From the NCBI GenBank assembly GCA_026710325.1, contig JAPORH010000011.1, positions 1-64,000 of the forward strand: a DNA stretch of 64,000 nt. Direction: 5' to 3'. Under the pieces are notes generated by a model that searched no databases, was not told the origin of the DNA, and saw nothing but the letters and a program-made list of their open reading frames with translations. Within the stretch, counting starts at the first letter, position 1. Each line of letters opens with the position of its first letter. Origin of the DNA: Litoreibacter sp. Lineage in GTDB: Bacteria > Pseudomonadota > Alphaproteobacteria > Rhodobacterales > Rhodobacteraceae. This document shows, piece by piece, positions 36,565 to 56,255 of this stretch. The position numbers were made by a program, and so were the translations under genes.

Positions 36565-36951
36565 ATGCGACTTCATTTTCACCATGTTGCCTTGATTGTT
36601 AAAGACTACGAAGCGTCCAAGGCTTTTTATTGTGATGTCTTGGGGCTCGAAGTTCTGGCTGAAAACTTTCGGGAAGATCGTAACTCTTGGAAGTTGGATC
36701 TGGCTCTTGCAGATGGTGGCCAGCTCGAACTGTTCAGTTTTCCCGATCCGCCTGCACGGCCCAGCCGCCCCGAAGCATGTGGTTTGCGGCATCTGGCGTT
36801 TAGGGTCGAGGATATAGACGCTGCACTTCTGGAACTCGAAGCAAAGCGCGTTGAGGTCGAGCCGGTTCGAATCGATCCCTATACACAGGCCCGTTTCACG
36901 TTTTTTAAAGACCCCGACGGGCTGCCTTTAGAGCTTTACGAACTCTCCTAG
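36565..36951 (+). CDS. VOC family protein (SMU1112c/YaeR-like glyoxalase-fold)
   Basis: MRLHFHHVALIVKDYEASKAFYCDVLGLEVLAENFREDRNSWKLDLALADGGQLELFSFPDPPARPSRPEACGLRHLAF. Confidence 0.9.
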   Translation: MRLHFHHVALIVKDYEASKAFYCDVLGLEVLAENFREDRNSWKLDLALADGGQLELFSFPDPPARPSRPEACGLRHLAFRVEDIDAALLELEAKRVEVEPVRIDPYTQARFTFFKDPDGLPLELYELS

Positions 36952-37002
36952 ACCCTGAAAAAGCTTGGTTTTTCGCAAGTTAAGTTTTTTAGGTTGCCAT
37001 TT

Positions 37003-37054
37003 TGGAACGTTCCAATGTACATTTTGGAACGTTCCATTTTCTTTTCTTGGAACG
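37003..37054. promoter_or_regulatory. Two perfect TGGAACGTTCCA palindromes plus a half-site, putative LacI-family operators
   Basis: TGGAACGTTCCA at 37003-37014 and 37025-37036, half-site TGGAACG at 37048-37054; 22-23 bp spacing, upstream of the CoA-transferase gene. Confidence 0.75.
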
Positions 37055-37072
37055 AGAGGGAGGAAGGACATC

Positions 37073-38644
37073 ATGACGAAAGTGATGCCGGTTGAAGATG
37101 CTGTTGCGCAAATTGAAGACGGTGCCGTTGTGACGGTTTCATCTTCCTCAACACTGGGCTGCCCCGACGCCGTGTTGGCCGCTGTTGGCGCCAGGTTTGT
37201 TGCCGAAGGTCATCCGCGCAACATCACTTCGCTTCACCCGATTGCCGCGGGGGATGTTTATGGCGTGAAGGGGATGGATCATATTGCGAAGGATGGCTTG
37301 CTATCGCGCGTTTTGGCCGGATCGTATCCGTCCGGCCCGTCAAGCGTCGAGATGCCCGAGATCTGGAAGATGATCGTCGAAGACCGGGTTGCGGCTTACA
37401 ATGTGCCTTCCGGCATCATGTTCGACATGCACCGCGAGGCGGCCGCCAAACGCCCCGGTGTTTTGACGGAGGTCGGATTGGACACTTTCGTTGACCCGAA
37501 CCGTCAGGGCTGCGCGATGAACGATAAAGGTGCTGCAGCGCCGATCGTCGAACGTGCCGAGTTCGGCGGTAAGACCTGGCTTCACTTTCCCAATATCGCG
37601 CCCGATGTGGCGATCATCCGGGCCACCACCGCTGATGAACGGGGCAATCTCACCTACGAACATGAAGGCGGGTATTTGGGCGGGCTGGAACAAGCGATTG
37701 CCGTGCGCAACAACGGCGGTCTGGTGATCGCGCAAGTCAAGCGTGTGACGGCGAACGGGTCGCTGCGCCCCCATGATGTGCGGGTTCCGGGCCATTTGGT
37801 GGATTGCGTCGTGGTTGATCCGGATCAGAAGCAGACCACGGAAACGCCGTATGATCCGGCGATTTCTGGCGAGATCATGCGTCCTTGGACCAGCTTTTCC
37901 CTTGCCGAACAAGGCGTCGAAAAAGTAATCGCCCGCCGTGCTGCGATGGAGCTGAAACGCGGTATGACCGCCAATCTGGGGTTCGGCATCAGCGCCATGG
38001 TGCCGCGGGTGCTGCTGGAGGAAGGGCACCCCGACGCCGTCACCTGGGCGATTGAGCAAGGCGCCGTGGGTGGCGTGCCGCTCACCGGTTTCGCATTTGG
38101 TTGTGCATCAAATGCAGACGCTTACGTCCCGTCGCCGCAGCAGTTTATCTATTTCCAAGGGGCCGGTTTTGACATGTCCTTCCTGTCCTTCCTTGAGGTC
38201 GATGTCGAAGGCAACGTCAACGTCTCCAAGCTCGGCAAGAAGCCCTATTTGACGGCAGGATGTGGGGGGTTCGTCGACATCACGGCCAAGGCCAAGAACA
38301 TCGTCTTCTCGGGCTGGTTCGAGGCCGGTGCAAAGATTGGCCTGACCGACGAAGGGATCAACATTGAAGCCCCGGGCAAGTTCACCAAGATGGTGGACGA
38401 GGTGGAGCATGTGACTTTCTCGGGCAGGCGCGCCCGGGAGCAGGGTCAGAACGTGATCTACGTGACCGAACGCTGCGTAATCTCGTTGCAGGGCAATGGG
38501 TTGGTAGCGACCGAAATCATGCCCGGGATCGACCCTCAGAAACATATTGTCGGTCCGTCGCAAGGCCGGGTACAGGTTGCCGAGAATGCAACGGTGATGC
38601 CAAAAGCCTTGCTTGCCGACGCGCCGATGGGGCTCTCACTGTGA
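37073..38644 (+). CDS. Acyl-CoA:acetate/3-ketoacid CoA-transferase (COG4670/YdiF-like)
   Basis: RNITSLHPIAAGDVYGVKGMDHIAKDGLLSRVLAGSYPSGPS...AIEQGAVGGVPLTGFAFG...FDMSFLSFLEVDVEGNVNVSKLGKK. Confidence 0.87.
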   Translation: MTKVMPVEDAVAQIEDGAVVTVSSSSTLGCPDAVLAAVGARFVAEGHPRNITSLHPIAAGDVYGVKGMDHIAKDGLLSRVLAGSYPSGPSSVEMPEIWKMIVEDRVAAYNVPSGIMFDMHREAAAKRPGVLTEVGLDTFVDPNRQGCAMNDKGAAAPIVERAEFGGKTWLHFPNIAPDVAIIRATTADERGNLTYEHEGGYLGGLEQAIAVRNNGGLVIAQVKRVTANGSLRPHDVRVPGHLVDCVVVDPDQKQTTETPYDPAISGEIMRPWTSFSLAEQGVEKVIARRAAMELKRGMTANLGFGISAMVPRVLLEEGHPDAVTWAIEQGAVGGVPLTGFAFGCASNADAYVPSPQQFIYFQGAGFDMSFLSFLEVDVEGNVNVSKLGKKPYLTAGCGGFVDITAKAKNIVFSGWFEAGAKIGLTDEGINIEAPGKFTKMVDEVEHVTFSGRRAREQGQNVIYVTERCVISLQGNGLVATEIMPGIDPQKHIVGPSQGRVQVAENATVMPKALLADAPMGLSL

Positions 38645-39408
38645 GCTCGATTGAGCTGTCATATGAGGGCGATGTCGCGGTGCTGACCGTGTCCAACGCG
38701 GCAAAGCTGAACGCTTTGACGATGTCGATGATGGATGCATTGGACGGCCATCTGACTCAGATTGACCGCAGCTCCGAGACGCGCGCCGTCATTGTCACCG
38801 GTGCGGGTGAAAAGGCGTTTTGCTGTGGCGCGGATATCGCCGAATGGGGCGCGCTTTCGCCTGCTGAGTTTGCGCGCGGCTGGGTGCGGGACGGTCATCG
38901 GATCTTCGACCGGTTGGCCCGACTGTCTAAGCCCACGATTGGTGCGTTGAACGGCCACGCTTTCGGTGGCGGGCTTGAGCTGGCTGCGGCTTGCGACATT
39001 CGGGTGATGACGCCGCGAGCGACATTGGCCTTGCCCGAAGCAAAGGTCGGGATCGTGCCTGGCTGGTCCGGCACTCAGCGTTTGATGCGCCTGTTGCCAG
39101 AACCTGTCGCCAAAGAGATGGCGCTGTTTGGCCGGCGTCTCTCGGCGGAGCGGGCTTTGAGCATCGGGTTTGTGGCCGACGTGGCTGAGGACGCATTTGG
39201 GGCGGCCAAACAGATTGCTACGGACCTGGCAGATGTTTCCCCCCGCGCGAATGAAATCACCAAGGCGATGATCCATGGCGCTGTGGGCGAAGACCGGGGC
39301 GCGGCAATCGAGGCCTTGGGCGCCGCTGCTGCAGGCCCAAGTGAAGACCGGCGCGAAGGCGTCGATGCCTTCCTGAACAAACGCTCCCCCAATTTTACAG
39401 GGCAATAA
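38641..39408 (+). CDS. Enoyl-CoA hydratase/isomerase family protein
   Basis: AVIVTGAGEKAFCCGADIAEW...ALNGHAFGGGLELAAACDIRVMTPRATLALPEAKVGIVPGWSGTQRL; both catalytic Glu present. Confidence 0.92.
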   Translation: MSSIELSYEGDVAVLTVSNAAKLNALTMSMMDALDGHLTQIDRSSETRAVIVTGAGEKAFCCGADIAEWGALSPAEFARGWVRDGHRIFDRLARLSKPTIGALNGHAFGGGLELAAACDIRVMTPRATLALPEAKVGIVPGWSGTQRLMRLLPEPVAKEMALFGRRLSAERALSIGFVADVAEDAFGAAKQIATDLADVSPRANEITKAMIHGAVGEDRGAAIEALGAAAAGPSEDRREGVDAFLNKRSPNFTGQ

Positions 39409-39411
39409 GAC

Positions 39412-40935
39412 ATGAATGACATGACCATTAACGCTGCTATCAAAACGTCATTGCCTGCCGCCTTCCAAGGTCGTCATCTGATCGATGGCGAATGGGTGGA
39501 CGGAGCCGAGACCTTTGAGCGGGTATCACCCTCCCATGATACCGTTGTGAGTGTCTCGGCCAAGGGTGATGAGGCGGTTGTAGAGGCAGCCATTGCCGCC
39601 GCCCGTCGCGCCTTTGATGCGGGCATCTGGAGCCGCATTTCCGCAAAGGAGCGCGCAGCCGTCCTGCTGAAAGTGGCCGATTTGATCGAGGCGAATATCG
39701 AAAGGATCGCTATCCAAGAGACTTTGGAAAGCGGCAAGCCGATCAGCCAGTCACGTGGCGAGGTTGGCGGCGCTGCCGACCTTTGGCGTTACGCCGCGTC
39801 CTTGGCCCGCACATCGCACGGCGACAGCCACAACTCGCTGGGCGAAGATATGCTGGGCGTCGTGGTCAAGGACCCCATCGGTGTCGTGTCGATCATCACG
39901 CCCTGGAACTTTCCGTTCTGGATCCTTAGCCAGAAACTGCCCTTCGCGCTTGCGGCTGGCTGCACCGTCGTCGTCAAGCCGTCAGAGATGACGCCGTCCT
40001 CAACGGTGATGATGGGCGAGCTGCTGATCGAAGCGGGCTTGCCTGCCGGTGTGTGCAACATCGTGCTGGGGTATGGCCAACCGGTGGGCAGCGTGATGTC
40101 GACCCACAGGGACGTCGATATGATCACCTTCACCGGATCGACCACTGTAGGCAAGCTGATCACACAAGCCTCTTCCGACACGCTCAAGAAGGTGGCGCTG
40201 GAGCTGGGGGGCAAGAACCCGCAGGTCATCATGCCCGATGCGGATCTCGAAAATGCGGCGGATGCCGTGACATTCGGGATCTATTTCAACGTCGGCCAGT
40301 GCTGTAACTCCTCCAGCCGGATCATTGTGCACGAGAATATTGCAGAAGCCTTTGTGGCCCGTGTGGTAGAGTTGTCGCGCCAGGTCAAATTTGGTGACCC
40401 GCTGGATGAAAGCACGCAGGTAGGAGCCATCGTAACAGCAGAACACAACGCCAAGATCGACGCCTATGTTCAGAATGCTGTCAAGGACGGCGCCAAGGTT
40501 GAACTGGGCGGCGGGCCGCTGTCCGTCGAAGGGCTTGGGCGGCAATTCTACCAGCCGACTGTCGTGAGCAACGTCACCCCCGACATGGCCATTGCCCGCG
40601 AAGAGGTCTTTGGTCCGGTGCTGACAGTTTTGACGTTCAAGACATTGGATGAGGCTATCGCGCTTACCAATGACAGTGACTACGGCCTGTCGGCGGGCAT
40701 CTGGAGCAACGACATCCACACTTGCCTTGAATTCTCTCGCCGCGCTCATGCCGGTACGGTTTGGACAAACACCTGGATGGATGGCTACCCCGAGCTTGCC
40801 TTCGGCGGTGTCAAGCAGTCCGGTCAGGGGCGCGAGATTGGAAAATACGGATATGATGAGTTTCTCGAGGTGAAATCGCTGGTGATGCGCGTAGGGCGCG
40901 ACAGCCGCACGCCTTGGGTTGAGACAGGCGCTTAA
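39412..40935 (+). CDS. Aldehyde dehydrogenase family protein
   Basis: [31 protein letters not shown]...FTGSTTVGK...[10 protein letters not shown]...[11 protein letters not shown]. Confidence 0.95.
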
Positions 40936-40976
40936 CAATGGCGTCGAAGACGAAACGCGACATGGGAGGAAACCAA

Positions 40977-42233
40977 ATGCGTTCTTACTTGAAAACAACT
41001 GCAATTGCGCTGGCCTTGACCACCGCTGCTGGCTCTGCCCAAGCAGATGCACATGGCGGGGTTGAAGTTCTGCACTGGTGGACATCGGGCGGCGAAGCCG
41101 CGGCGCTCAACGTGCTGAAAGAAGACCTGGAAGGTCAGGGCATCGGCTGGACCGATATGCCAGTTGCTGGCGGGGGCGGCGAGCAGGCGATGACTGTGCT
41201 ACGCGCCCGCGTGACCGCAGGCAACGCACCAACTGCTGTTCAAGGTCTCGGCTTTGACATCATCGACTGGGCCAAACAGGGATCGCTCGCGGATCTGAAC
41301 GCCGTTGCTGCAGCCGAGGGCTGGGACGACGTGATCCCTGCAGCGCTACAGCAGTTCGCCAAAGTGGACGGTAAATGGGTGTCTGCCCCGGTGAACGTGC
41401 ACTCCACCAACTGGGTTTGGGCCAACAAGGCGGTTCTGGAGGCAAACGGTATTGCTGAGCCAACCTCCTGGGAGGAGTTCACCGCAGCGCTTGAAAAGCT
41501 GAAAGCTGCAGGCGTGACCCCAATCGCGCATGGCGGCCAGGCTTGGCAGGACGCCACTGTGTTCGACGGTGTCGCTATGTCGGTTTTGGGACCGGATGGC
41601 TACAAAGCCGCTTTCATCGACCTCGACGAAGAGGTTCTGGGCGGTGGCGCCATGAAAGAGGCCTTCGACCGCATGGCCGTGATCCGCGACAATGTGGACG
41701 AGAACTTCTCGGGCCGTGACTGGAACCTTGCAACCGCCATGGTCATCAACGGCGAGGCCGGTTTCCAGATGATGGGCGATTGGGCCAAGGGCGAATTCCT
41801 GAACGCGGGCAAAGTGCCGGGTCAGGACTTCTTGTGCTTCCGCTTCCCCGGCACGGCTGAGCAGGTCACATTCAACGCCGACCAGTTCATGATGTTCGAC
41901 CAGGGCGGTTCCGTCTCGGACGAGCAGGCAGCGCTTGCAACTGCGATCCTGTCACCATCCTTCCAGTCGGCTTTCAACGTCGTGAAGGGCTCGGTCCCTG
42001 CGCGCACGGATGTTTCGGACGCGGCGTTTGATGATTGCGGCAAGAAGGGCATGGCCGATCTTGCGGCAGCGGCCTCGTCGGGCAACCTGTTTGGCTCCAT
42101 GGCCCATGGCCACGCCAACCCGGCTTCTGTGAAAAACGCGATCTATGACGTCGTCACTGCGCATTTCAATGGCGAGTATGACAGCGAAACTGCTGTTGCC
42201 GAGCTGGTCGATGCGGTGTCGATCGCCAAGTAA
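40977..42233 (+). CDS. CUT1-type carbohydrate ABC transporter substrate-binding protein
   Basis: Signal peptide; [50 protein letters not shown]. Confidence 0.92.
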
Positions 42234-42270: not shown

Positions 42271-42312
42271 CCACTTATTCGCAAACTCCACTCTGCCTAA
42301 AGGGGGCGCGTG

Positions 42313-43206
42313 ATGGCACATTTGGCCAACGCGGATTTCAAGACGCGGCTACAATCTTGGTTGCCGAAACTGGTGCTCTCGCCGTCGCTGGCTTTGGTGC
42401 TGGTCTTTGTCTACGGGTTCATCATCTTCTCGGTCTATCTGTCCTTTACCGACAGCCGATTGTTGCCATCCTATGGCTGGGTCGGCTGGGAGAACTATTC
42501 CAAGCTCTGGCGGCTTAGCCATTGGGAAACGTCCCTGATCAACATGGGCATCTTTGCGTTTCTCTACATTGGCATATGCACGGTGTTGGGTCTGGGGCTC
42601 GCAATCTTCCTCGATCAGAAAATACGCGGCGAAGGGGTAATCCGGACAATCTACCTTTATCCGATGGCGCTGTCTTTCATCGTCACAGGCACGGCATGGA
42701 AGTGGTTTCTGGACCCCGGCATCGGGCTCGAGAATGTCATGCAGACCTGGGGCTGGGAGAGCTTTGAGTTCGACTGGATCAAGAACCGCGATTTCGCAAT
42801 TTACACGGTTGTCCTTGCCGCTGTCTGGCAAACCTCGGGTTTCGTTATGGCGATGTTCCTCGCCGGGCTTCGCGGCATTGACAACGAGATGCTGAAAGCG
42901 GCGCAGATGGACGGGGCCAGCAACTGGAACCTTTACCGCCGGATCATCATTCCACAGCTTCGGCCCGCCTTTCTGTCGGCTTTCGTCATCCTCAGCCACC
43001 TGGCCATCAAGACCTTCGATCTGGTTATCGCGCTGACCGGCGGTGGGCCCGGCCGGGCGACCGAGCTGCCGGCGACATTCATGTACTCCTACACTTTCAC
43101 ACGGAACCAGATGGGGATCGGTGCCGCCTCGGCCACGATCATGCTGATGACAATCGCCGCAATCATGATCCCTTATCTTTACGCCGAATTGCGGGAGAAG
43201 AAGTGA
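42313..43206 (+). CDS. Carbohydrate ABC transporter permease (MalF-type)
   Basis: Six-TM CUT1 permease, EAA-like loop LKAAQMDGASNWNLYRRIIIPQLRP. Confidence 0.92.
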   Translation: MAHLANADFKTRLQSWLPKLVLSPSLALVLVFVYGFIIFSVYLSFTDSRLLPSYGWVGWENYSKLWRLSHWETSLINMGIFAFLYIGICTVLGLGLAIFLDQKIRGEGVIRTIYLYPMALSFIVTGTAWKWFLDPGIGLENVMQTWGWESFEFDWIKNRDFAIYTVVLAAVWQTSGFVMAMFLAGLRGIDNEMLKAAQMDGASNWNLYRRIIIPQLRPAFLSAFVILSHLAIKTFDLVIALTGGGPGRATELPATFMYSYTFTRNQMGIGAASATIMLMTIAAIMIPYLYAELREKK

Positions 43207-43231: not shown

Positions 43232-44113
43232 ATGAGCGTCGCAACGCAAGATACCGCTATTCGCACAGGTCGCGTCATGCGCACGCTGATCTATCTGGTG
43301 CTGCTGCTCTTCGTCCTGTTCTACATGCTGCCGCTCTACGTGATGCTCGTGAACTCGGTGAAGCCGCTGGAAGAGATCACCGGCGGCGGCATGATGAACC
43401 TGCCACAGGTCTTCACCCTGGAGCCCTGGTTCAAAGCTTGGTCATCTGCCCAGATCGGGGTCGAACCGACGGGATTGTCGCCTTACTTCTGGAACTCGAT
43501 CAAGATGGTCGTGCCTGCTGTGATCATCTCAACAGTCCTGGGCGCCCTGAACGGCTACGTCCTGACCAAGTGGCGCTTCCGTGGTGACACGATCCTGTTC
43601 GGCCTGATGCTTTTCGCCTGTTTCATCCCCTTCCAAATCGTGCTGATCCCAATGGCGCGGGTGCTGGGCGAGTTGGGCCTGGCCGGGTCAACCTGGGGCC
43701 TGTCGCTGGTGCATATCGTCTACGGTATCGGCTTCACGACGCTTTATTTCCGAAACTACTATGCGGTGTTCCCGACCGAGCTGATCCGCGCAGCCCAGAT
43801 TGATGGGGCGGGATTCTTCCAGATTTTCTGGCGCATCTTGCTGCCTTCATCAGGACCGATCGCAGTGGTCTCGATCATCTGGCAATTCACCAATATTTGG
43901 AACGACTTCCTGTTCGGCGCGTCCTTTGCTGGTGCAAACAACCAACCGATGACGGTTGCTCTGAACAACCTCGTGCAAGCCAGCCACGGTGTGAAAGAAT
44001 ATAACGTCCACTTCGCCGGGGCCATCCTGGCGGCGCTCCCAACTCTGCTCGTCTACATCGTCGCGGGCCGCTACTTCGTACGCGGTCTGATGGCCGGCTC
44101 CGTGAAAGGATAA
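43232..44113 (+). CDS. Carbohydrate ABC transporter permease (MalG-type)
   Basis: EAA loop LIRAAQIDGAGFFQIFWRILLPSSGP. Confidence 0.92.
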   Translation: MSVATQDTAIRTGRVMRTLIYLVLLLFVLFYMLPLYVMLVNSVKPLEEITGGGMMNLPQVFTLEPWFKAWSSAQIGVEPTGLSPYFWNSIKMVVPAVIISTVLGALNGYVLTKWRFRGDTILFGLMLFACFIPFQIVLIPMARVLGELGLAGSTWGLSLVHIVYGIGFTTLYFRNYYAVFPTELIRAAQIDGAGFFQIFWRILLPSSGPIAVVSIIWQFTNIWNDFLFGASFAGANNQPMTVALNNLVQASHGVKEYNVHFAGAILAALPTLLVYIVAGRYFVRGLMAGSVKG

Positions 44114-44117
44114 ACCC

Positions 44118-45230
44118 ATGGGCTTCCTAGACATCGATAACACAACCAAATCCTATGGCGCGGTGGAGGTGCTTCACAACGTGGACATCTCGGTCGAGGA
44201 GGGCGAGTTCCTAGTCCTCGTTGGTCCGTCGGGCTGCGGCAAGTCAACGCTCTTGAACATGATCGCAGGGCTTGAGGATATTTCCAGCGGGGAAATCCGC
44301 ATCAAGGACCAGTTGATGAACGGGGTGCACCCGTCCAAGCGCAACATCGCCATGGTGTTCCAAAGCTATGCGCTCTACCCGAACATGACGGTTGGGCAAA
44401 ACATCACCTTCGGTCTGGAAATGCACGGTGTGCCAAAGCCAGAGCGCGAAAAGGCGATGCATGAGGTCGCCAACCTGCTGCAGATCGAGAACTTCCTTGA
44501 CCGCAAGCCGGGCGCCTTGTCGGGCGGGCAGCGTCAGCGGGTCGCCATGGGCCGGGCCCTTGTGCGCAATCCAGACGTCTTCCTGTTTGACGAACCGCTG
44601 TCCAACCTTGACGCCAAGCTGCGCGTCGATATGCGGACCGAAATCAAGAAACTGCACCAAAAGCTGGGCACCACCATCGTCTATGTCACCCATGACCAGA
44701 TCGAGGCGTTGACGCTCTCGACACGGATCGCGGTGATGAACGGCGGTTACGTGCAACAGCTTGGCACGCCGCAGGAAATTTACGACACACCGGCCAACAT
44801 CTTCGTCGCCACTTTCATGGGCTCTCCAGCGATGAATGTGATACCAGCCAAGGTCGACATGCAAAACGGGCGGCCCGTGGCCTGTGTTGAAACCCATGAC
44901 GGAACGACCTCGACCCTGCCGTTCAGCCAGGACAACCTGTCTGAATGGAACGGCAAGGACATCCTGCTTGGCATTCGCCCGGAGACGATCACCGATGAAG
45001 ACGCTGCCGACCGCAAGTCCTCAAACATCGCGCATCTGACCAATCAGGTCGTTGTGACGGAACCAGCGGGCTCCGACACATTCGTGTCCATGACGCTTGG
45101 CGGCCGCGACGTGATTGCCAGAATGCGCTCTGATGCTGAGGTGAAACCAGGCGCCGATTTCACCTTCGCGGTGAATATGGAAAAAGCCGTCGCTTTTGAT
45201 CCGGCAACCGAGATGCGCATCCCGGCCTGA
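44118..45230 (+). CDS. Carbohydrate ABC transporter ATP-binding protein (MalK/UgpC-like)
   Basis: GPSGCGKSTLLNMIAGLEDISSG...LSGGQRQRVAMGRALVRNP...DEPLSNLDAKLR; TOBE region. Confidence 0.95.
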   Translation: MGFLDIDNTTKSYGAVEVLHNVDISVEEGEFLVLVGPSGCGKSTLLNMIAGLEDISSGEIRIKDQLMNGVHPSKRNIAMVFQSYALYPNMTVGQNITFGLEMHGVPKPEREKAMHEVANLLQIENFLDRKPGALSGGQRQRVAMGRALVRNPDVFLFDEPLSNLDAKLRVDMRTEIKKLHQKLGTTIVYVTHDQIEALTLSTRIAVMNGGYVQQLGTPQEIYDTPANIFVATFMGSPAMNVIPAKVDMQNGRPVACVETHDGTTSTLPFSQDNLSEWNGKDILLGIRPETITDEDAADRKSSNIAHLTNQVVVTEPAGSDTFVSMTLGGRDVIARMRSDAEVKPGADFTFAVNMEKAVAFDPATEMRIPA

Positions 45231-46714
45231 TGGACGCTGACGTCATCATAATTGGCTCCGGCATGGGCGGCGCAACACTGGCGGCAGCGTTGGCTCCTTC
45301 GGGGCGTCGGATCATGATCCTCGAGCGGGGCGAGCATTTGCGCGCCTCGCCAAAGGATCGCGATGCGGAGGCGATATTTGGTGACGGGGCTTTTCGTCCA
45401 GATGAAACGTGGCTGGACGGGCAAGATCGTCCCTTCAACCCGGGAAATTACTACAACGTAGGTGGGAACTCCAAATTCTATGGGGCCGCCTTGATCCGTT
45501 ATCGGGCGTCTGACTTCGATGCGGTCATGCACCCCGGAGGCACAACGCCGGGCTGGCCCATTCGTTATGACGAGATTGAGGCGGACTATCAGGCCGCCGA
45601 AGACATGTATCAGGTCCGAGGGCAGGCCACCGACGATCCGACCGAACCTGAGCATTCCGGCAACTACCCCCACCCGCCAGTGCCCGACGAGCCAGACATG
45701 GCTGCCCTGCGGGCGCGATTGAAAGACGCAGGCCTGCATCCGTCTCATATTCCACTAGGGGTTGATCTGACGCTGTGGCTCGCTGCGGGAAAAACCACCT
45801 GGGATGCCTATCCCAACACCTGTGGTGGCAAGATGGATGCAGAGACCGGGGGACTGGCCCGCGCGCTGGCGCACGACAATGTGACGCTGACAACTGGCGT
45901 TGAAGTCGAAGCATTGCAGAGCGACGCGGCAGGCCGGATCACGGGCGTTTTGTTGAAAAAGGGTCTTATTCTGACGGCGCCTTTGGTCGTTGTGGCGGCG
46001 GGTGCGGTTCAGACTGCTGCACTTCTACTGCGCTCTGCCAATGACAATTGCCCGACGGGTTTGGCGAACCGCTCTGATCAGGTCGGCCGGAACTTCATGA
46101 ACCATAATTGTTCTGCTGTGCTGGCGCTCCACCCGTTCCGCAAGAACCGATCCATCTACCAAAAGACCCTGATGCTGAACGATTTCTATCAGCGCTCCAA
46201 CACCCGGCCACCACTCGGCAATATCCAGATGCTTGGAAAGATAACCGGGCCCATTCTTGCAGCGACGACTCCGCTCCCACGCGCTGTTGCGCATTGGATC
46301 GCCGCGCGCAGCTTCGATTTCTACGCCATGTCCGAAGACCTCGCGAATCCGGAGAGCCGGGTGACGTTGAAGAATGGGCAGATCAAGCTCGACTGGCAGC
46401 GGTCGAACTGGAGTGCCCATCTGCAGTTGGTGCGTGAACTCAAACGCGTCTTGCGACGGGTTGGGTTTCCAATTGTGCTGAGCCAAGCCTTTGATCGGCG
46501 CACCCCGTCGCATCAATGCGGCACGGCCCGCATGGGTGATGACCCGGCTGCAAGCGTCGTGGACAGCCATTGCCGTAGCCATGACCACCCCAATCTTTTC
46601 ATTGTCGATGCGTCAGTGTTGCCGACATCCGCCGCCGTGAACCCGGCGCTGACCATCGCCGCTCTCGCCTTACGCGCGGGACGCCACATCACCCAGACGG
46701 AGTTTGCCGCATGA
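45230..46714 (+). CDS. GMC family FAD-dependent oxidoreductase (gluconate/glucoside dehydrogenase-like)
   Basis: DVIIIGSGMGGATLAAALAPSGRRIMILERGE...HQCGTARMGDDPAASVVDSHCRSHDHPNLFIVDASVLPTSAAVNPALTIAALALR; no obvious signal peptide. Confidence 0.9.
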   Translation: MDADVIIIGSGMGGATLAAALAPSGRRIMILERGEHLRASPKDRDAEAIFGDGAFRPDETWLDGQDRPFNPGNYYNVGGNSKFYGAALIRYRASDFDAVMHPGGTTPGWPIRYDEIEADYQAAEDMYQVRGQATDDPTEPEHSGNYPHPPVPDEPDMAALRARLKDAGLHPSHIPLGVDLTLWLAAGKTTWDAYPNTCGGKMDAETGGLARALAHDNVTLTTGVEVEALQSDAAGRITGVLLKKGLILTAPLVVVAAGAVQTAALLLRSANDNCPTGLANRSDQVGRNFMNHNCSAVLALHPFRKNRSIYQKTLMLNDFYQRSNTRPPLGNIQMLGKITGPILAATTPLPRAVAHWIAARSFDFYAMSEDLANPESRVTLKNGQIKLDWQRSNWSAHLQLVRELKRVLRRVGFPIVLSQAFDRRTPSHQCGTARMGDDPAASVVDSHCRSHDHPNLFIVDASVLPTSAAVNPALTIAALALRAGRHITQTEFAA

Positions 46715-48306
46715 CCGGCCGTGGATATGATTTCATCGTGATCGGGGGAGGCTCCGCCGGCTCTGCCATCGCAGCGCGCTTGTCAGAGGACCCGAGCGCC
46801 AAGATCCTGCTGCTGGAGGCAGGCGGCAGCGACCGCCACCCGTTTTTTCACCTGCCCGCAGGTTTTGCCAAGATGACCAAGGGTATTGGTTCCTGGGGGT
46901 GGTCGAGCACGCCGCAAAAGGCAATGCAGAACAAAGTGTTCAACTACACACAAGCCAAGGTCATTGGCGGCGGTTCGGCGATCAACGCGCAGATCTACAC
47001 GCGAGGTGCCGCGCAGGATTATGACGGCTGGCGACAGATGGGCTGCGACGGCTGGAGCTATGAAGACGTGCTGCCCTACTTCAAAAAGTCCGAGGATAAC
47101 GACACCTACAACGGGCGCTTGCATGGCAAGGGCGGGCCTTTGGGCGTGTCCATGCCCGCCGCCCCCTTGCCCATCTGCGATGCCTTCATCGAGGCCGCCG
47201 GTCAGGTGGGCATACCCAAAACGACGGATGTGAATGGCGAAAAGCAGGACGGTGCGGGCTATTACCAGCTCACCCAAAAGCACGCGCGCCGTTCCTCGGC
47301 GGCAATGGCGTTTCTGGGGCAGGCTCGCGGGCGGGGCAATCTGACGATCCAGATGAAGGCGCAGGTCAAGCGGATCGTGGTCGAACATGGCAGGGCGAGC
47401 GGTGTCGAGATGGCTGATGGCTCCGTCATCACGGCGGACCGAGAGGTGATCCTGTCCTCGGGCGCGATCGGCTCACCGCGCTTGCTGCAGCTGTCGGGAA
47501 TTGGTCCTGCAGATCATCTGCAAAGCCTTGGCATCGACGTGATCTATGACCAGCCCGCGGTCGGCGCGAACCTGCAAGACCATCTGGACCTTTATGCGAT
47601 TTGCGAGGTCACGGGCCCCCACACCTATGACCGGTTCGCCAAGCTGCATCTCAGCGCTTTTGCCGCCCTGCAATATCTCTTCACCCGCAAGGGTCCCGTT
47701 GCCTCCAGCCTCTTTGAAACGGGTGGCTTTTGGTACGCGGATGAGAATGCGGAAACGCCAGACATCCAGATGCATCTGGGCTTGGGCACCGGCATCGAAG
47801 CGGGTGTCGAGGCGATGGCGAACGGGGGCGTGACGCTGAATGCGTGCCACTTGCGCCCACGATCACGCGGGACAGTCCGGCTGCAATCGGACAACCCCAA
47901 AGACATGCCGCTCATTGATCCCAATTACCTCTCAGACCGTTACGATCGCGACATGTCGATCCGGGGCCTGAAGCTGGTGCAAGAGATCCTGTCGCAATCC
48001 GCGCTATCGAAATACATCCTCGCCGAACGCTTGCCGGGCCCGGATGTGAGGACGGACGAGGATTACTACAACTTCATTTGCGTCCACTCCAAAACCTCGC
48101 ACCATTGCGCAGGTACCTGCCGCATGGGCGCGGATGAGGCAGCGGTTCTCAACCCACGTCTCCAATTCAACGGCATTGACGGCCTGCGCGTGGCCGACGC
48201 CTCGGTCATGCCGACCGTCAATTCATCCAACACAAACGCACCCTCCATCATGATCGGCGAGAAAGCCGCCGACATGATCAAACAAGACCAAGGAATGTCC
48301 CTATGA
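46711..48306 (+). CDS. GMC family oxidoreductase (choline dehydrogenase-like)
   Basis: YDFIVIGGGSAGSAIAARLSEDPSAKILLLEAGG...SGAIGSPRLLQLSGIGPADHL...CAGTCRMG...VADASVMPTVNSSNTNAPSIMIGEKAADMI. Confidence 0.94.
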   Translation: MTGRGYDFIVIGGGSAGSAIAARLSEDPSAKILLLEAGGSDRHPFFHLPAGFAKMTKGIGSWGWSSTPQKAMQNKVFNYTQAKVIGGGSAINAQIYTRGAAQDYDGWRQMGCDGWSYEDVLPYFKKSEDNDTYNGRLHGKGGPLGVSMPAAPLPICDAFIEAAGQVGIPKTTDVNGEKQDGAGYYQLTQKHARRSSAAMAFLGQARGRGNLTIQMKAQVKRIVVEHGRASGVEMADGSVITADREVILSSGAIGSPRLLQLSGIGPADHLQSLGIDVIYDQPAVGANLQDHLDLYAICEVTGPHTYDRFAKLHLSAFAALQYLFTRKGPVASSLFETGGFWYADENAETPDIQMHLGLGTGIEAGVEAMANGGVTLNACHLRPRSRGTVRLQSDNPKDMPLIDPNYLSDRYDRDMSIRGLKLVQEILSQSALSKYILAERLPGPDVRTDEDYYNFICVHSKTSHHCAGTCRMGADEAAVLNPRLQFNGIDGLRVADASVMPTVNSSNTNAPSIMIGEKAADMIKQDQGMSL

Positions 48307-48611
48307 TCCGCCACATCGTCCTCACCAAATTCAAGCCCGACGTCTCTGAGGACACCATCAAAACCATCTATGACGGCCTGTCTGCCCTCGCGGGCAAACT
48401 GCCCGGTGCCGCTAATTTCACTGGTGGGCGCTCTGAGAGCCCCGAGCAGATCGAGCGCGGCTATATGCACGGCTTTGTCATCGATTTTGACAGCTGGGAC
48501 GCCCTGCAAAACTACGCCGACAATGAGGAGCACAAAGCCCTGGGTGGCCAGCTTGTGGCCAACGCCGTGGGCGGAATCGACGGTATTCTGGTTCTCGACC
48601 TCGACGTGTAG
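48303..48611 (+). CDS. Dabb (stress-responsive A/B barrel) family protein
   Basis: MIRHIVLTKFKPDVSEDTIKTIYDGLSALAGKLPGAANFTGGRSESPEQIERGYMHGFVIDFDSWDALQNYADNEEH. Confidence 0.9.
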   Translation: MIRHIVLTKFKPDVSEDTIKTIYDGLSALAGKLPGAANFTGGRSESPEQIERGYMHGFVIDFDSWDALQNYADNEEHKALGGQLVANAVGGIDGILVLDLDV

Positions 48612-48635: not shown

Positions 48636-49640
48636 ATGAAAAGCCGCCCCACCATTCTGGACGTCGCCAAACAGGCTGGCGTGTCGAAATCCACCGTGAG
48701 CCTCGTTTTGCAAGGGGCAAGCTCGGTCAAGGATGAAACCCGCAGCTCAGTGCGGCAGGCCATGGCGGATATCGGCTACGTGTATAACCGGTCTGCGGCA
48801 ACACTGCGGTCGTCGACCTCCGGGCTGATCGGGCTGGTCATCAACGACCTGCGCAACCCGTTCTTTACCGAGTTTGCAGCGCGCTTTCAGATGGAGCTTG
48901 CAAAGGCCGGTTTTGCCACCGTGCTGGCCAACACCGACGAAGACCCCAAGCTGCAAAGCCAGATGATATCGTCGCTCGTCGAACACGGAGTTTCGGGCTT
49001 CATTATTTCACCCGCCTATGGGGAAGAAGCCACAACACTCGCGGTTTTGGACGCGGCCAACACTCCGACATTGCAGGTCTTTCGGACGCTGGAACGAGAG
49101 GGCGGCACGTTTCCACTTCTGGCACCCGACTACCTGACAGGCGGGCGGTTAGCGGCAGAACATCTGCTTGAGAAAGGCTGCAAAAAGATCGCTTTCCTCG
49201 GCGGGCTCGAAGGGCGTCCGGTGACGCGCGAACGCATGGCGGGCTATCTGTCGGTCTTGGAAGAGGTCGGGCAGGAACCGCTGATCCTCACCGGACAATC
49301 GACCCGTGCGTTTGGCAAATCCATGGCCGCCCAGATGCGTAAAGACCACCCGGATGTCGATGGTGTCATCTGTTTTAACGACCTTGTTGCCCTTGGCGTG
49401 CTTGCAGCTTGCCCCGATCTTGGGATCAAGGCCGGGCGCGACCTGCGCGTGGTGGGCTTCGATGATATCGAAGACGGGCAAGACAGCTATCCACCACTGA
49501 CCACTGTCAGCAGTAATATCCCAGATTTTGCGGCCTCAGCCGCGCGCCAGATCGTCGATTGGATCAAAGACGGCGTTGCCCCGCCGCCCGAGGCACGCAG
49601 CCCGGTGCGCTTGGTCATCCGTGCCTCCAGCGGCGCATGA
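48636..49640 (+). CDS. LacI family transcriptional regulator
   Basis: PTILDVAKQAGVSKSTVSLVLQGASSVKDETRSSVRQAMADIGYVYNRSAATLRSSTSGLIGLVIND. Confidence 0.96.
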   Translation: MKSRPTILDVAKQAGVSKSTVSLVLQGASSVKDETRSSVRQAMADIGYVYNRSAATLRSSTSGLIGLVINDLRNPFFTEFAARFQMELAKAGFATVLANTDEDPKLQSQMISSLVEHGVSGFIISPAYGEEATTLAVLDAANTPTLQVFRTLEREGGTFPLLAPDYLTGGRLAAEHLLEKGCKKIAFLGGLEGRPVTRERMAGYLSVLEEVGQEPLILTGQSTRAFGKSMAAQMRKDHPDVDGVICFNDLVALGVLAACPDLGIKAGRDLRVVGFDDIEDGQDSYPPLTTVSSNIPDFAASAARQIVDWIKDGVAPPPEARSPVRLVIRASSGA

Positions 49641-49658: not shown

Positions 49659-50825
49659 ATGACAGAGGTAAAAGTCGCCGTACTTGGCGCGTCTGGCTGG
49701 ATGGGCAAGACCCACACCATGGCCTATCAGAGTTTCCCGCATTTCTTCGGGCCTGAAGGTGGCACGGCCCGCGTTGTCGCCCTGGTCGAGGCCAACCCCG
49801 CCGCCGCGAAGGACCTGGCGTTCCGCGCGCCGGGCGCAAAGATCCTTGAGCACTGGCAGGATGCTGTAAGCGATCCCGATGTCGACCTGATCGACATCTG
49901 CTTGCCGGACAATATGCATTACGAAGTCGCCAAGGCCGCACTGCTCGCAGGCAAGCACGTCTATTGCGAAAAACCACTTGCCGACACCGCTAAACAGGCG
50001 CGTGAGTTGGCGGATATCGCACGCGAAAAGGGGCTGATCACGCGGGTTGGCCATTCCTTCCCGCGCAACCCGATCCATGACCGTGCGAAAGAGATCATCG
50101 ACGCAGGCGAGATTGGTGAAATCAAGCTGTTCAAGGCCTGCCAGCATATCGACATCTACGGCGACCCGCTGGCCCCTTACATGTGGCGCGCGGATGGGGA
50201 CCTCGCACCGACGGGCATTATCGGCGACACCGGCAGCCATGTGTTCAGCTTCATGGAGTTTTTGGTGGGTAAGGTGTCTTCTCTCATTGCGGACATCTAC
50301 ATCACCGCGCCAAAGCGGCCCAAGGTCGAAGGGCTGGGCTATGGCGACGCTCCGCCGCCCGTCACAGATGCGACCGAATGGGGCGACGTCACAAACCCGG
50401 ACGGCACCAACATCTTGTGCACCTTTGAAAACGGCGCCAAAGGCCTGATCGATTTCAGCCGCGTCGCCACCGGTCGCAAGTTCATGCAGACCTATGAGAT
50501 CTACGGCACCAAAGGCAGCCTCGCCTACACCTTCGACGAGGTGAACCGGCTGCGCTTTTATTCGAACGACGACGCCGCCGGTCGCCGCGGGTTTCGTGAG
50601 ATCGACGTGGGCCCCGAGCACCCAACCTACGCGGCCTTCCTGCCGCTGCCGAACTTCGCGCTTGGCTATAACGAAGGCAAGATCATCGAGATTGCCGAGG
50701 TGATCAAATCGATCACCACACAGACGCCCATGTGGCCCACCTTCGAGAACGGTCACCACATTTGCCAGATTGTGGATGCCTGCATGGCCTCGTCTGACAA
50801 GCGGGCCTGGGTCGATATTGCCTGA
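49659..50825 (+). CDS. Gfo/Idh/MocA family oxidoreductase
   Basis: KVAVLGASGWMGKTHTMAY...DVDLIDICLPDNMHYEVAKAALLAGKHVYCEKPLADTAKQARELADIA. Confidence 0.95.
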   Translation: MTEVKVAVLGASGWMGKTHTMAYQSFPHFFGPEGGTARVVALVEANPAAAKDLAFRAPGAKILEHWQDAVSDPDVDLIDICLPDNMHYEVAKAALLAGKHVYCEKPLADTAKQARELADIAREKGLITRVGHSFPRNPIHDRAKEIIDAGEIGEIKLFKACQHIDIYGDPLAPYMWRADGDLAPTGIIGDTGSHVFSFMEFLVGKVSSLIADIYITAPKRPKVEGLGYGDAPPPVTDATEWGDVTNPDGTNILCTFENGAKGLIDFSRVATGRKFMQTYEIYGTKGSLAYTFDEVNRLRFYSNDDAAGRRGFREIDVGPEHPTYAAFLPLPNFALGYNEGKIIEIAEVIKSITTQTPMWPTFENGHHICQIVDACMASSDKRAWVDIA

Positions 50826-50837
50826 AGCCGAGGACCA

Positions 50838-52907
50838 TTGATGTCACTGTCTGTCCCACAGCAAATCCTTGATGCGCTGACCGATGTGGTCATGCCGCGC
50901 CTGAACCCTGAGCCTGAGATGGCCGAGTCGCTCCGCGTCGGCGTCTATGATGTGCCTGTATATCGGACCGGAGCGCTGGTCATCGGAAGCGGTGCCGCAG
51001 GCCTGCGCGCGGCGGTTGAGATGAAACGGCGCGGTGTGGATGTCACCATCATTAGCCAAAGCGCCTGGGGTGGCACGTCGGCCTGCTCTGGCTCTGACAA
51101 GCAGACGCTGCACACGGCCAATACCAAGGATCAAGGCGACAACTTTCAGGCCATGGCAGAGGCGATCCGCGCGGGCGGCGCGATGGATGAAGACACCGCC
51201 TATATCGAGGCGGTCGGGTCTGTGCGTGCCATGGCCTCACTGCAATATCTGGGATTGCCGTTGCCGCAGGACCATCTGGGCGGCACGCTGCGCTATCAGA
51301 CCGATCATGACGAGGTCGGCAGGGCCACATCCTGCGGGCCGCGCACGTCCCGGCTCATGGTCAAGGTTTTGGCCGAAGAGGCGCTCCGCCTGGATATCCC
51401 CTTCTTCAACCATACGACTGCGATCAAGGTGTTGAAAGACGCGCAGGGTGTGACCGGCCTCCTCGTGATCCGACCCAAGGAAGGCACCGAGGCGAACCCC
51501 TACGGTCTCGCCCTTTACGCCTGTTCCGCGCTGGTCTTGGCCGCCGGTGGCCCGGGTGAGATGTACCGTGACAGCGTCTTTCCAAATGGCTGTTTCGGGA
51601 CATTGGGGCTGGCGTTGGAGGCCGGGTTGGAGCTGACCAACATCACCGAAAGCCAGTTCGGCATCGGCACCCGTCGTGAAGGGTTCCCTTGGAACCTCTC
51701 GGGCACCTATGTGCAGGTGATCCCTCACATCTACTCGGTCGACGATGGAGGCTCCGAATACCCCTTCCTCGCCGACTATTACCGAACCACGCAAGAGCTG
51801 GCCTCGAACATCTTCCGCAAGGGATACCAATGGCCGTTCCACGCAAGCCGAATGTTGGATTTCCAATCGAGCCTTGTGGACCTCGCCATCTTCCGCGAAA
51901 GCCAGAAGGGCCGCCGTGTCTTCATGGATTTCAACCGCAACCCGGAAGCAATTGACCTGCCCTTCAGCTTGGATCGTCTCGACGACGATGTCAGCCGCTA
52001 TCTGCGCAACGCGGGCGCTGATCATGCGCTTCCCATAGACCGATTGCGCCACATGAACCCGCTCGCGATTGAGCTTTACAAGCGCTACAAGGTTGACATC
52101 ACGGCGGCCCCTTTGGAATTCGCGGTGAATAATCAACACATGAATGGCGGGATCGCGGTGGACACCTGGGGCCGGACAAACGTGCCCGGTATCTACGCGG
52201 TGGGCGAGGCGTCAGGAACCCATGGCGTGACCCGCCCAGGTGGCTCGGCGCTGAATGCAGGGCAGGTCTTTGGGACCCGCGTGGCCGAACATGTCGGGGC
52301 CGCCGGCCATGCCGCCACGCCGTCCCAATCTGATTTGACGCAGGCTGCAAACACCGCCGTTGCGGAGATTGACCGTGTTCTCAGCACCGAGAGCGATGTG
52401 ACGTGGAAAGACATCCGGACGGATGTTCAGGCGCGCATGAGCGATCATGCCGGTATCCTGTGTACCGCCGATGACGTGGCCGGGGCATTGGCAGACGCGC
52501 GCGCGCTCAATGCACGGATCCGCGCAAAAGGCATGATGGTGTCGCGCCCGTCCGAGACGGCCCGCGTCCTGCAATGGCAGCAAATGGCTTTGGCGTCGGA
52601 GGCGGTGCTTGCCGCGCTCGATCACTACATCGCGCAAGGCGGAGGCAGCCGGGGCGCGCGGGCGATCTGTGACCCTTTGGGCGATGCCTTGCCGCACTCC
52701 GTGCATGGGCCCTTGCCCGAGGTCCGGTTTCGCGCAGAACGCGATGCCGACAAGGAAAGTCAGCTGCATGTGCGCTTGGATGGGCCAAACATGATCGTCA
52801 CCGAGGTGCCAAATCGCCGATATGTCGGCGACAAGTCGTTCTTTGAACGCGATTGGCCCGCGTGGCTCACCGGGGGCATCTACGATCAAGACGCCCCAAT
52901 GCCTTGA
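50838..52907 (+). CDS. SdhA/FrdA/NadB-like FAD-binding oxidoreductase
   Basis: GALVIGSGAAGLRAAVEMKRRGVDVTIISQSAWGGTSACSGSD...NNQHMNGGIAVDTWGRTNVPGIYAVGEASGTHGVTRPGGSALNAGQVFGTRVAEH. Confidence 0.87.
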   Translation: MMSLSVPQQILDALTDVVMPRLNPEPEMAESLRVGVYDVPVYRTGALVIGSGAAGLRAAVEMKRRGVDVTIISQSAWGGTSACSGSDKQTLHTANTKDQGDNFQAMAEAIRAGGAMDEDTAYIEAVGSVRAMASLQYLGLPLPQDHLGGTLRYQTDHDEVGRATSCGPRTSRLMVKVLAEEALRLDIPFFNHTTAIKVLKDAQGVTGLLVIRPKEGTEANPYGLALYACSALVLAAGGPGEMYRDSVFPNGCFGTLGLALEAGLELTNITESQFGIGTRREGFPWNLSGTYVQVIPHIYSVDDGGSEYPFLADYYRTTQELASNIFRKGYQWPFHASRMLDFQSSLVDLAIFRESQKGRRVFMDFNRNPEAIDLPFSLDRLDDDVSRYLRNAGADHALPIDRLRHMNPLAIELYKRYKVDITAAPLEFAVNNQHMNGGIAVDTWGRTNVPGIYAVGEASGTHGVTRPGGSALNAGQVFGTRVAEHVGAAGHAATPSQSDLTQAANTAVAEIDRVLSTESDVTWKDIRTDVQARMSDHAGILCTADDVAGALADARALNARIRAKGMMVSRPSETARVLQWQQMALASEAVLAALDHYIAQGGGSRGARAICDPLGDALPHSVHGPLPEVRFRAERDADKESQLHVRLDGPNMIVTEVPNRRYVGDKSFFERDWPAWLTGGIYDQDAPMP

Positions 52908-55369: not shown

Positions 55370-55384
55370 ATAACCAATGGTTAT
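55370..55384. promoter_or_regulatory. Dyad ATAACCA-A-TGGTTAT, putative LysR box
   Basis: 7-1-7 perfect palindrome containing T-N11-A between divergent aminotransferase and lysR genes. Confidence 0.55.
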
Positions 55385-55388
55385 GAAT

Positions 55389-56255
55389 ATGCGTCCCCTT
55401 GATACCGTTCCCATCATCGCTTTGCGCGCCCTGCCGCTGATCCAAGAGACCGGCAGCATCACCCGAGCGGCGAACGCCTTGGGTGTTTCACAACCCGCCA
55501 TCAGCCGCGCCATCGCAGCGCTCGAGGAGAAATCGGCGGTCGTAGTGACACACCGGATCGGCGGGCAAATCAGACTGACGGCGGAGGGTGAGCGCCTTGC
55601 AGAGCTTGGCCGTCGCGAGGCGCTGCTGCGCCAAGACGCATGGGAGGATGTGACCGCTTTGAGGCGCAAAAAGACCGGGGCCTTGCGCATAGGTTCTATT
55701 GGCGCGTCGGCCTCGACCCAGCTCTTGCCGAAACTGCTTGGGCGCTATCAAAGCCGATTTCCTGAAATCCGTCTTGCTGTCCGCGAAATTCCCGAAACAG
55801 CGATGGCCGAAGCGCTCAAAACAGGGGTCGTCGATGTCGCCATCACATTGGCGCAGGAGGACCCCGCGCTGGAACAGGTGCCACTTGCAAATGACCACTT
55901 AGTCGCCCTGATGCCCGATGACCGGGTCTGGCCGGAACGGCTTACACCGCAGGACCTTGCGACTTTGCCTTTCGTTATGACGAAAGGTGGTTCAGAGCCC
56001 TTGGTGCGAGCCTGGTTCGCCCATGCTGGCGTTGCACCTGATATCCGGCATGAGGCACAACAGATCACTTCGCTCTTGGCGCTTGTGCGCGCGGGTCTGG
56101 GCGCGACCATCATTGCCGATCTTGCCGCGCCAGAACATCACCCGGGTCTCGTCAAGGTGCCCCTTGCCCCCCCAGCCCCGCGTGAAATCGTCCTCGCACG
56201 TGTGGCTGGCAACCTCACTTCAGAGGCTTTGTCAGCCTTTTGGGCGACGCTTTAA
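55389..56255 (+). CDS. LysR family transcriptional regulator
   Basis: MRPLDTVPIIALRALPLIQETGSITRAANALGVSQPAISRAIAALEE; start could also be 55377 or 55383. Confidence 0.93.
   Translation: MRPLDTVPIIALRALPLIQETGSITRAANALGVSQPAISRAIAALEEKSAVVVTHRIGGQIRLTAEGERLAELGRREALLRQDAWEDVTALRRKKTGALRIGSIGASASTQLLPKLLGRYQSRFPEIRLAVREIPETAMAEALKTGVVDVAITLAQEDPALEQVPLANDHLVALMPDDRVWPERLTPQDLATLPFVMTKGGSEPLVRAWFAHAGVAPDIRHEAQQITSLLALVRAGLGATIIADLAAPEHHPGLVKVPLAPPAPREIVLARVAGNLTSEALSAFWATL

Follow-up and report, generated by a model that had tools for sequence, protein, structure and literature searches.

Gene content of the operon

The window (the whole 64,000-nucleotide stretch of DNA analysed here) carries a predicted catabolic operon that begins with a CoA-transferase gene and includes the gene of a LacI-family regulator. 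Two copies of a 12-bp palindrome, hereafter O1 and O2, stand directly in front of it. From the CoA-transferase gene through position 52907 all genes lie on the + strand and are tightly packed, giving an operon of ~16 kb with the following predicted products:

37073..38644, + strand, CoA-transferase, first operon gene (PF01144, 90 bits; FadX-like at 310 bits, below the cutoff of 750)
38641..39408, + strand, enoyl-CoA hydratase family gene (PF00378)
39412..40935, + strand, aldehyde dehydrogenase (PF00171, 554 bits)
40938..42233, + strand, ABC transporter solute-binding protein, sugar type (PF01547)
42310..43206, + strand, ABC permease 1 (PF00528)
43232..44113, + strand, ABC permease 2 (PF00528)
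44118..45230, + strand, ABC ATPase, UgpC/MalK type (NF008653, 450 bits, above the cutoff of 432)
45230..46714, + strand, GMC oxidoreductase 1, related to FAD glucose/fructose dehydrogenases
46711..48306, + strand, GMC oxidoreductase 2, choline-dehydrogenase type
48303..48611, + strand, Dabb-domain protein (PF07876)
48636..49640, + strand, LacI-family regulator, predicted to bind O1 and O2 (PF00356, PF00532, PF13377)
49659..50825, + strand, Gfo/Idh/MocA dehydrogenase, regulon member (PF01408; preceded by its own TGGAACGTTCCA site in several relatives)
50838..52907, + strand, fumarate-reductase/SDH-like flavoprotein, probable last gene (PF00890; linked to a site in L057 and L060)

This gene content suggests that a sugar-like or glycoside compound is imported and oxidised, with CoA-ester chemistry as the next stage. 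The Gfo/Idh protein is closest to levoglucosan dehydrogenase, with a score of 301 bits that is under the cutoff of 650. In profile searches the regulator shows an N-terminal LacI helix-turn-helix followed by a periplasmic-binding-protein-like ligand domain, with PF00356 at 61.7 bits, PF13377 at 108.4 bits and PF00532 at 98.3 bits, all above their cutoffs. The operon of relatives may also contain a DUF993 protein (L168 16174-17334; L094 4545-5885), which is missing from the window's version, and in L168 an SDR gene lies between the two GMC genes.

Two identical palindromes precede the operon

The sequence-only reading had described two identical 12-bp palindromes spaced by 22 bp, with a further TGGAACG 23 bp on, immediately before the first gene, and our coordinates bear this out:

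37003..37014, no strand assigned, operator O1, TGGAACGTTCCA, within the -35/-10 spacer and conserved in orthologous heads
37025..37036, no strand assigned, operator O2, TGGAACGTTCCA, over the predicted transcription start and conserved in orthologous heads
37048..37054, + strand, third half-site TGGAACG, probably non-functional, kept in 2 of 91 paired heads

O1 and O2 begin at -70 and -48 relative to the ATG of the CoA-transferase gene at 37073, start to start 22 bp apart, and the third half-site begins 23 bp downstream of the start of O2 and ends 18 bp before the ATG. The two halves of TGGAACGTTCCA, TGGAAC and GTTCCA, form an even palindrome with a central CG. No other exact copy occurs in the window, as the sequence-only reading had noted by eye, and there is likewise none in the rest of the 4.19-Mb genome (4,185,406 bp). 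Base composition predicts ~0.2 exact 12-mers per genome and ~1.6e-7 exact pairs at comparable spacing, and the two palindromes are thus far beyond chance. We found nothing in support of the view that they are chance palindromes without function; it is refuted by the conservation across genera and orders described below and can practically be discarded.

Allowing up to one mismatch gave no enrichment across the genome (10 matches, versus 12 with the reversed control). The eight copies that carry one mismatch lie elsewhere and all overlap ORFs, and they were ruled out as regulon members. The third half-site fared no better. With nine copies of TGGAACG on the + strand of the window, the half-site on its own is not beyond chance, and among 91 orthologous paired heads it is kept in two, the window and L050, which is among the closest relatives. 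We therefore rejected it as a conserved member of an operator array, and TGGAACG at 37048-37054 is probably no functional operator. Measured against the 16-22 nt of LacI-type palindromes, the site has a 12-bp core that is strong; each of the two bases preceding O1 has ~0.6 bit, which makes a weak extension of the core plausible.

The palindromes are conserved at the head of orthologous operons

Footprinting upstream of orthologous CoA-transferase genes, which the sequence-only reading had set as a test, was strongly positive. We picked 76 operon heads from named records by CoA-transferase homology alone, and 74 of these 76 contain a site with at most one mismatch. Each of 19 shuffled control palindromes, built from the same half-site letters with the central CG retained, was found in at most 2 of the 76. 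At loci selected through LacI or through the pair, every head with full upstream sequence has a site under the same one-mismatch limit. In operons with an additional Gfo/Idh gene ahead of the CoA-transferase gene, the sites precede the Gfo/Idh gene, ~1030-1060 bp from the CoA-transferase start, which shows that they track the head of the operon and not one particular gene. The operon is present across Rhodobacteraceae and also in records of Rhizobium/Ciceribacter, Roseibium/Labrenzia, Devosia and Granulosicoccaceae.

We further searched 296 genomes of the order for the exact pair, defined as two copies of TGGAACGTTCCA with 5-15 bases between them. It is present in 14 genomes, and in every one of them it heads the orthologous CoA-transferase operon; the reversed control of the exact pair is present in none of the 296. 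A looser pair, GGAACGTTCC-N7..17-GGAACGTTCC, is present in 23 of the 296 genomes, and a LacI homologue at E<=1e-85 in 44. The looser pair was found in 23 of the 44 genomes with the LacI homologue versus 0 of the 252 without it (Fisher p 1.8e-22, a nominal value as related genomes are not independent). The reversed control of the looser pair gave 8 and 10 matches in G168 and G246 only, perhaps from a repeat family.

O1 and O2 are embedded in a predicted promoter

The region in front of the first gene contains a predicted promoter that encloses O1:

36994..36999, + strand, predicted -35 element TTGCCA, the only promoter-like match in 36900-37100
37018..37023, + strand, predicted -10 element TACATT, 18-bp spacer, with the TA downstream of O1 conserved in aligned heads

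The -10 match of the window is modest (TACATT, with the 18-bp spacer). When 83 distinct heads are aligned on O1, 71 have a TTG whose first base is 10 or 11 bp upstream of O1, and a TA at +13/+14 from O1, the start of the -10, is found in 72 and 67 of them. As the TTG of the -35 and the TA of the -10 flank O1, O1 would fill the 17-18-bp spacer and O2 would lie on the predicted start site, a layout that would suit simple repression, in which RNA polymerase is kept off the promoter.

Spacing and mirrored half-site changes

Among 111 distinct heads, 91 are paired and 19 carry a single site, which indicates that not every head requires a pair. Spacings within the pairs are 19-26 bp in 82 heads (mostly 21-23) and 30-34 bp in 8, with none at 27-29. 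Mismatches to the palindrome number 82 in the outer versus 22 in the inner half-sites, and outer changes in O1 have their mirror image in O2, as in TGGATCGTTCCA with TGGAACGATCCA. Other mirrored pairs, from heads L050-L252, are TGGATCG/CGATCCA, TGGACCG/CGGTCCA, TAGAACG/CGTTCTA and TGTCACG/CGTGACA; in these the composite dyad is kept. We counted 20 mirrored changes in 82 representatives versus a shuffled mean of 5.5 and a maximum of 13, a count that is inflated by genome relatedness and is only suggestive of mirroring beyond chance.

Two independent dimer sites do not predict mirrored outer changes; a symmetric two-dimer assembly with fixed inner contacts would explain them. It is tempting to speculate that O1 and O2 form a single composite operator of 33-35 bp for an obligate dimer-of-dimers LacI, in which the inner half-sites stay perfect and the outer ones change only jointly, mirrored around the -10, although we regard this as a tentative possibility that is rather unlikely.

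The mirrored changes would also preserve the pairing of an RNA stem (20 compensated cells versus the shuffled mean of 5.5, on the same relatedness-inflated count), and in the window the pair makes a stem of 13 bp, with 8 bases in the loop and a T-rich run behind it. O1-O2 could in that case be an RNA hairpin, acting either as the terminator of the upstream glyoxalase gene or as an attenuator of the operon. However, the predicted start within O2 places O1 outside the operon transcript, the gene upstream varies between genomes, heads with a single palindrome exist and the spacing varies by helical turns. The T-runs after O2 are not retained in relatives, so that the mark of an intrinsic terminator or attenuator, a stem and a conserved T-run within the transcript, was not found. 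On the grounds of the promoter geometry and the missing conserved T-run, we rejected the hairpin as very improbable.

The regulator encoded in the operon

An even palindrome with a CG at its centre is the form of most LacI-family operators (PMC4052901), in agreement with what the sequence-only reading had taken to be typical of the family, and tandem sites of the family peak at spacings of 13, 22 and 32 bp, of which the 22- and 32-bp peaks were read by the authors as cooperative binding of two dimers (PMC4052901). The sites described here share the even palindrome with central CG and the spacing near 22 or 32 bp, and those of the window, at -70 and -48, fall within the 30-140 bp before the start codon of the regulated operon that are usual for the family; in addition, they are conserved before orthologous operons and rare elsewhere, as is expected of LacI tandem operators. 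The recognition helix of the regulator, SKSTVSLV, is identical in 35 of the 35 LacI orthologues read, in line with the nearly invariant inner half-sites.

The sequence-only reading had named abundance at unrelated loci as evidence against an operator. We examined the own genome together with 13 relatives chosen for having the pair, and 33 of the 34 exact sites in these 14 genomes fall in regulon loci: 28 in head pairs and 5 beside LacI before regulon genes, with 1 in an unrelated ORF. The second position within the regulon is before the Gfo/Idh or flavoprotein genes that adjoin LacI. The single extra exact site, in G010 (C14), lies inside a long ORF and was taken as chance.

In one relative, G143, the sole LacI match is on a contig other than that of the head pair, and among the genes checked beside the head pair none has a DNA-binding or regulator domain. 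The unlinked LacI of G143 has an exact TGGAACGTTCCA nearby (L153 8915-8926), before a PfkB-type sugar kinase gene, which speaks for LacI acting on the sites in trans and points to the kinase as a further pathway gene.

The motif could instead be the operator of another, distantly encoded regulator (an IclR, GntR or LacI paralogue) that is co-inherited with the operon. The motif co-occurs with the whole operon too, so co-occurrence cannot single out LacI, and within the window the closest other gene recognised as a regulator is of the LysR type, at 55377-56255. The architecture of the sites is nevertheless LacI-typical in its central CG, even palindrome and 22/32-bp spacing (PMC4052901), LacI is the regulator retained beside the operon with a helix as invariant as the motif, and its unlinked locus in G143 has its own exact site. 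Moreover, the own genome encodes no second protein with such a DNA-binding domain at E<=1e-10. We consider a distant regulator to be improbable.

A probable tandem LacI operator and its relation to known systems

Altogether, it is highly probable that O1-O2 is a tandem operator embedded in the promoter, and that the LacI encoded in the operon (48636-49640) acts on it to repress the operon. Of the operator array for the cluster's LacI that the sequence-only reading had proposed, the paired operator is upheld by conservation and LacI co-occurrence, and the third half-site has to be dropped. In the model that we infer, which comprises LacI binding, the sign of regulation, cooperativity, the effector and the continuity of the operon, each palindrome would be bound by one dimer of the cluster's LacI. 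With O1 in the -35/-10 spacer and O2 over the start, the bound repressor would exclude RNA polymerase. The two dimers would sit two helical turns apart on the same face of the DNA and would probably bind cooperatively, given that the spacing matches that of published LacI tandem sites. The repressor would be released by an effector, probably a sugar, a glycoside or a sugar acid that the pathway either imports or makes, and the transporter and catabolic genes would thereby be turned on. Repression would be autoregulatory, as the LacI, Gfo/Idh and flavoprotein genes are inside the same predicted transcription unit.

In E. coli lac, a LacI-family repressor binds an operator at the transcription start and is released by an inducer, and the lac operators are far apart and loop through a tetramer. 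The switch proposed here would resemble lac in its LacI-family repressor, in an operator at the predicted start and in the expected release by an inducer, whereas its two predicted dimer sites stand side by side in one promoter. Closer parallels are RafR of Enterobacteriales and ScrR of Burkholderiales, with tandem operators spaced 21-22 bp (Ravcheev et al., 2014, PMC4052901). O1 and O2 share with the RafR and ScrR operators the even palindrome with central CG, the 21-22 bp spacing with a second class near 32 bp, and the position upstream of a sugar-type catabolic operon. They differ in their sequence (TGGAACGTTCCA), in the regulator, in the CoA-transferase/GMC/ABC operon and in the single site in 19 of the 111 heads.

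The comparative data support a real, widely conserved switch of a well-known kind, in which a conserved catabolic operon has a predicted tandem LacI operator at its promoter. We searched the literature for the motif, the gene set and DUF993 and retrieved no paper on the regulon, and the 12-mer TGGAACGTTCCA appears in no paper of the library searched; the regulog may already be in RegPrecise. For a catabolic operon that is uncharacterised, the analysis defines an operator, a regulator and a regulon boundary that can be put to the test. The specificity of the site makes it usable to find missing genes of the pathway, such as the PfkB kinase in G143, and in a simple reporter screen for the pathway substrate.

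Additional one-mismatch sites were seen in relatives. Inside the operon, such sites precede the first GMC gene (L155 12119, L161 12169, L154 7609, L172 7580), suggesting an internal promoter that may be regulated in several relatives. In G238, a LacI paralogue that is 40% identical and has the same recognition helix is accompanied by a one-mismatch site just upstream (L067 8852-8863), as would be expected if the helix dictates a TGGAACGTTCCA-type motif.
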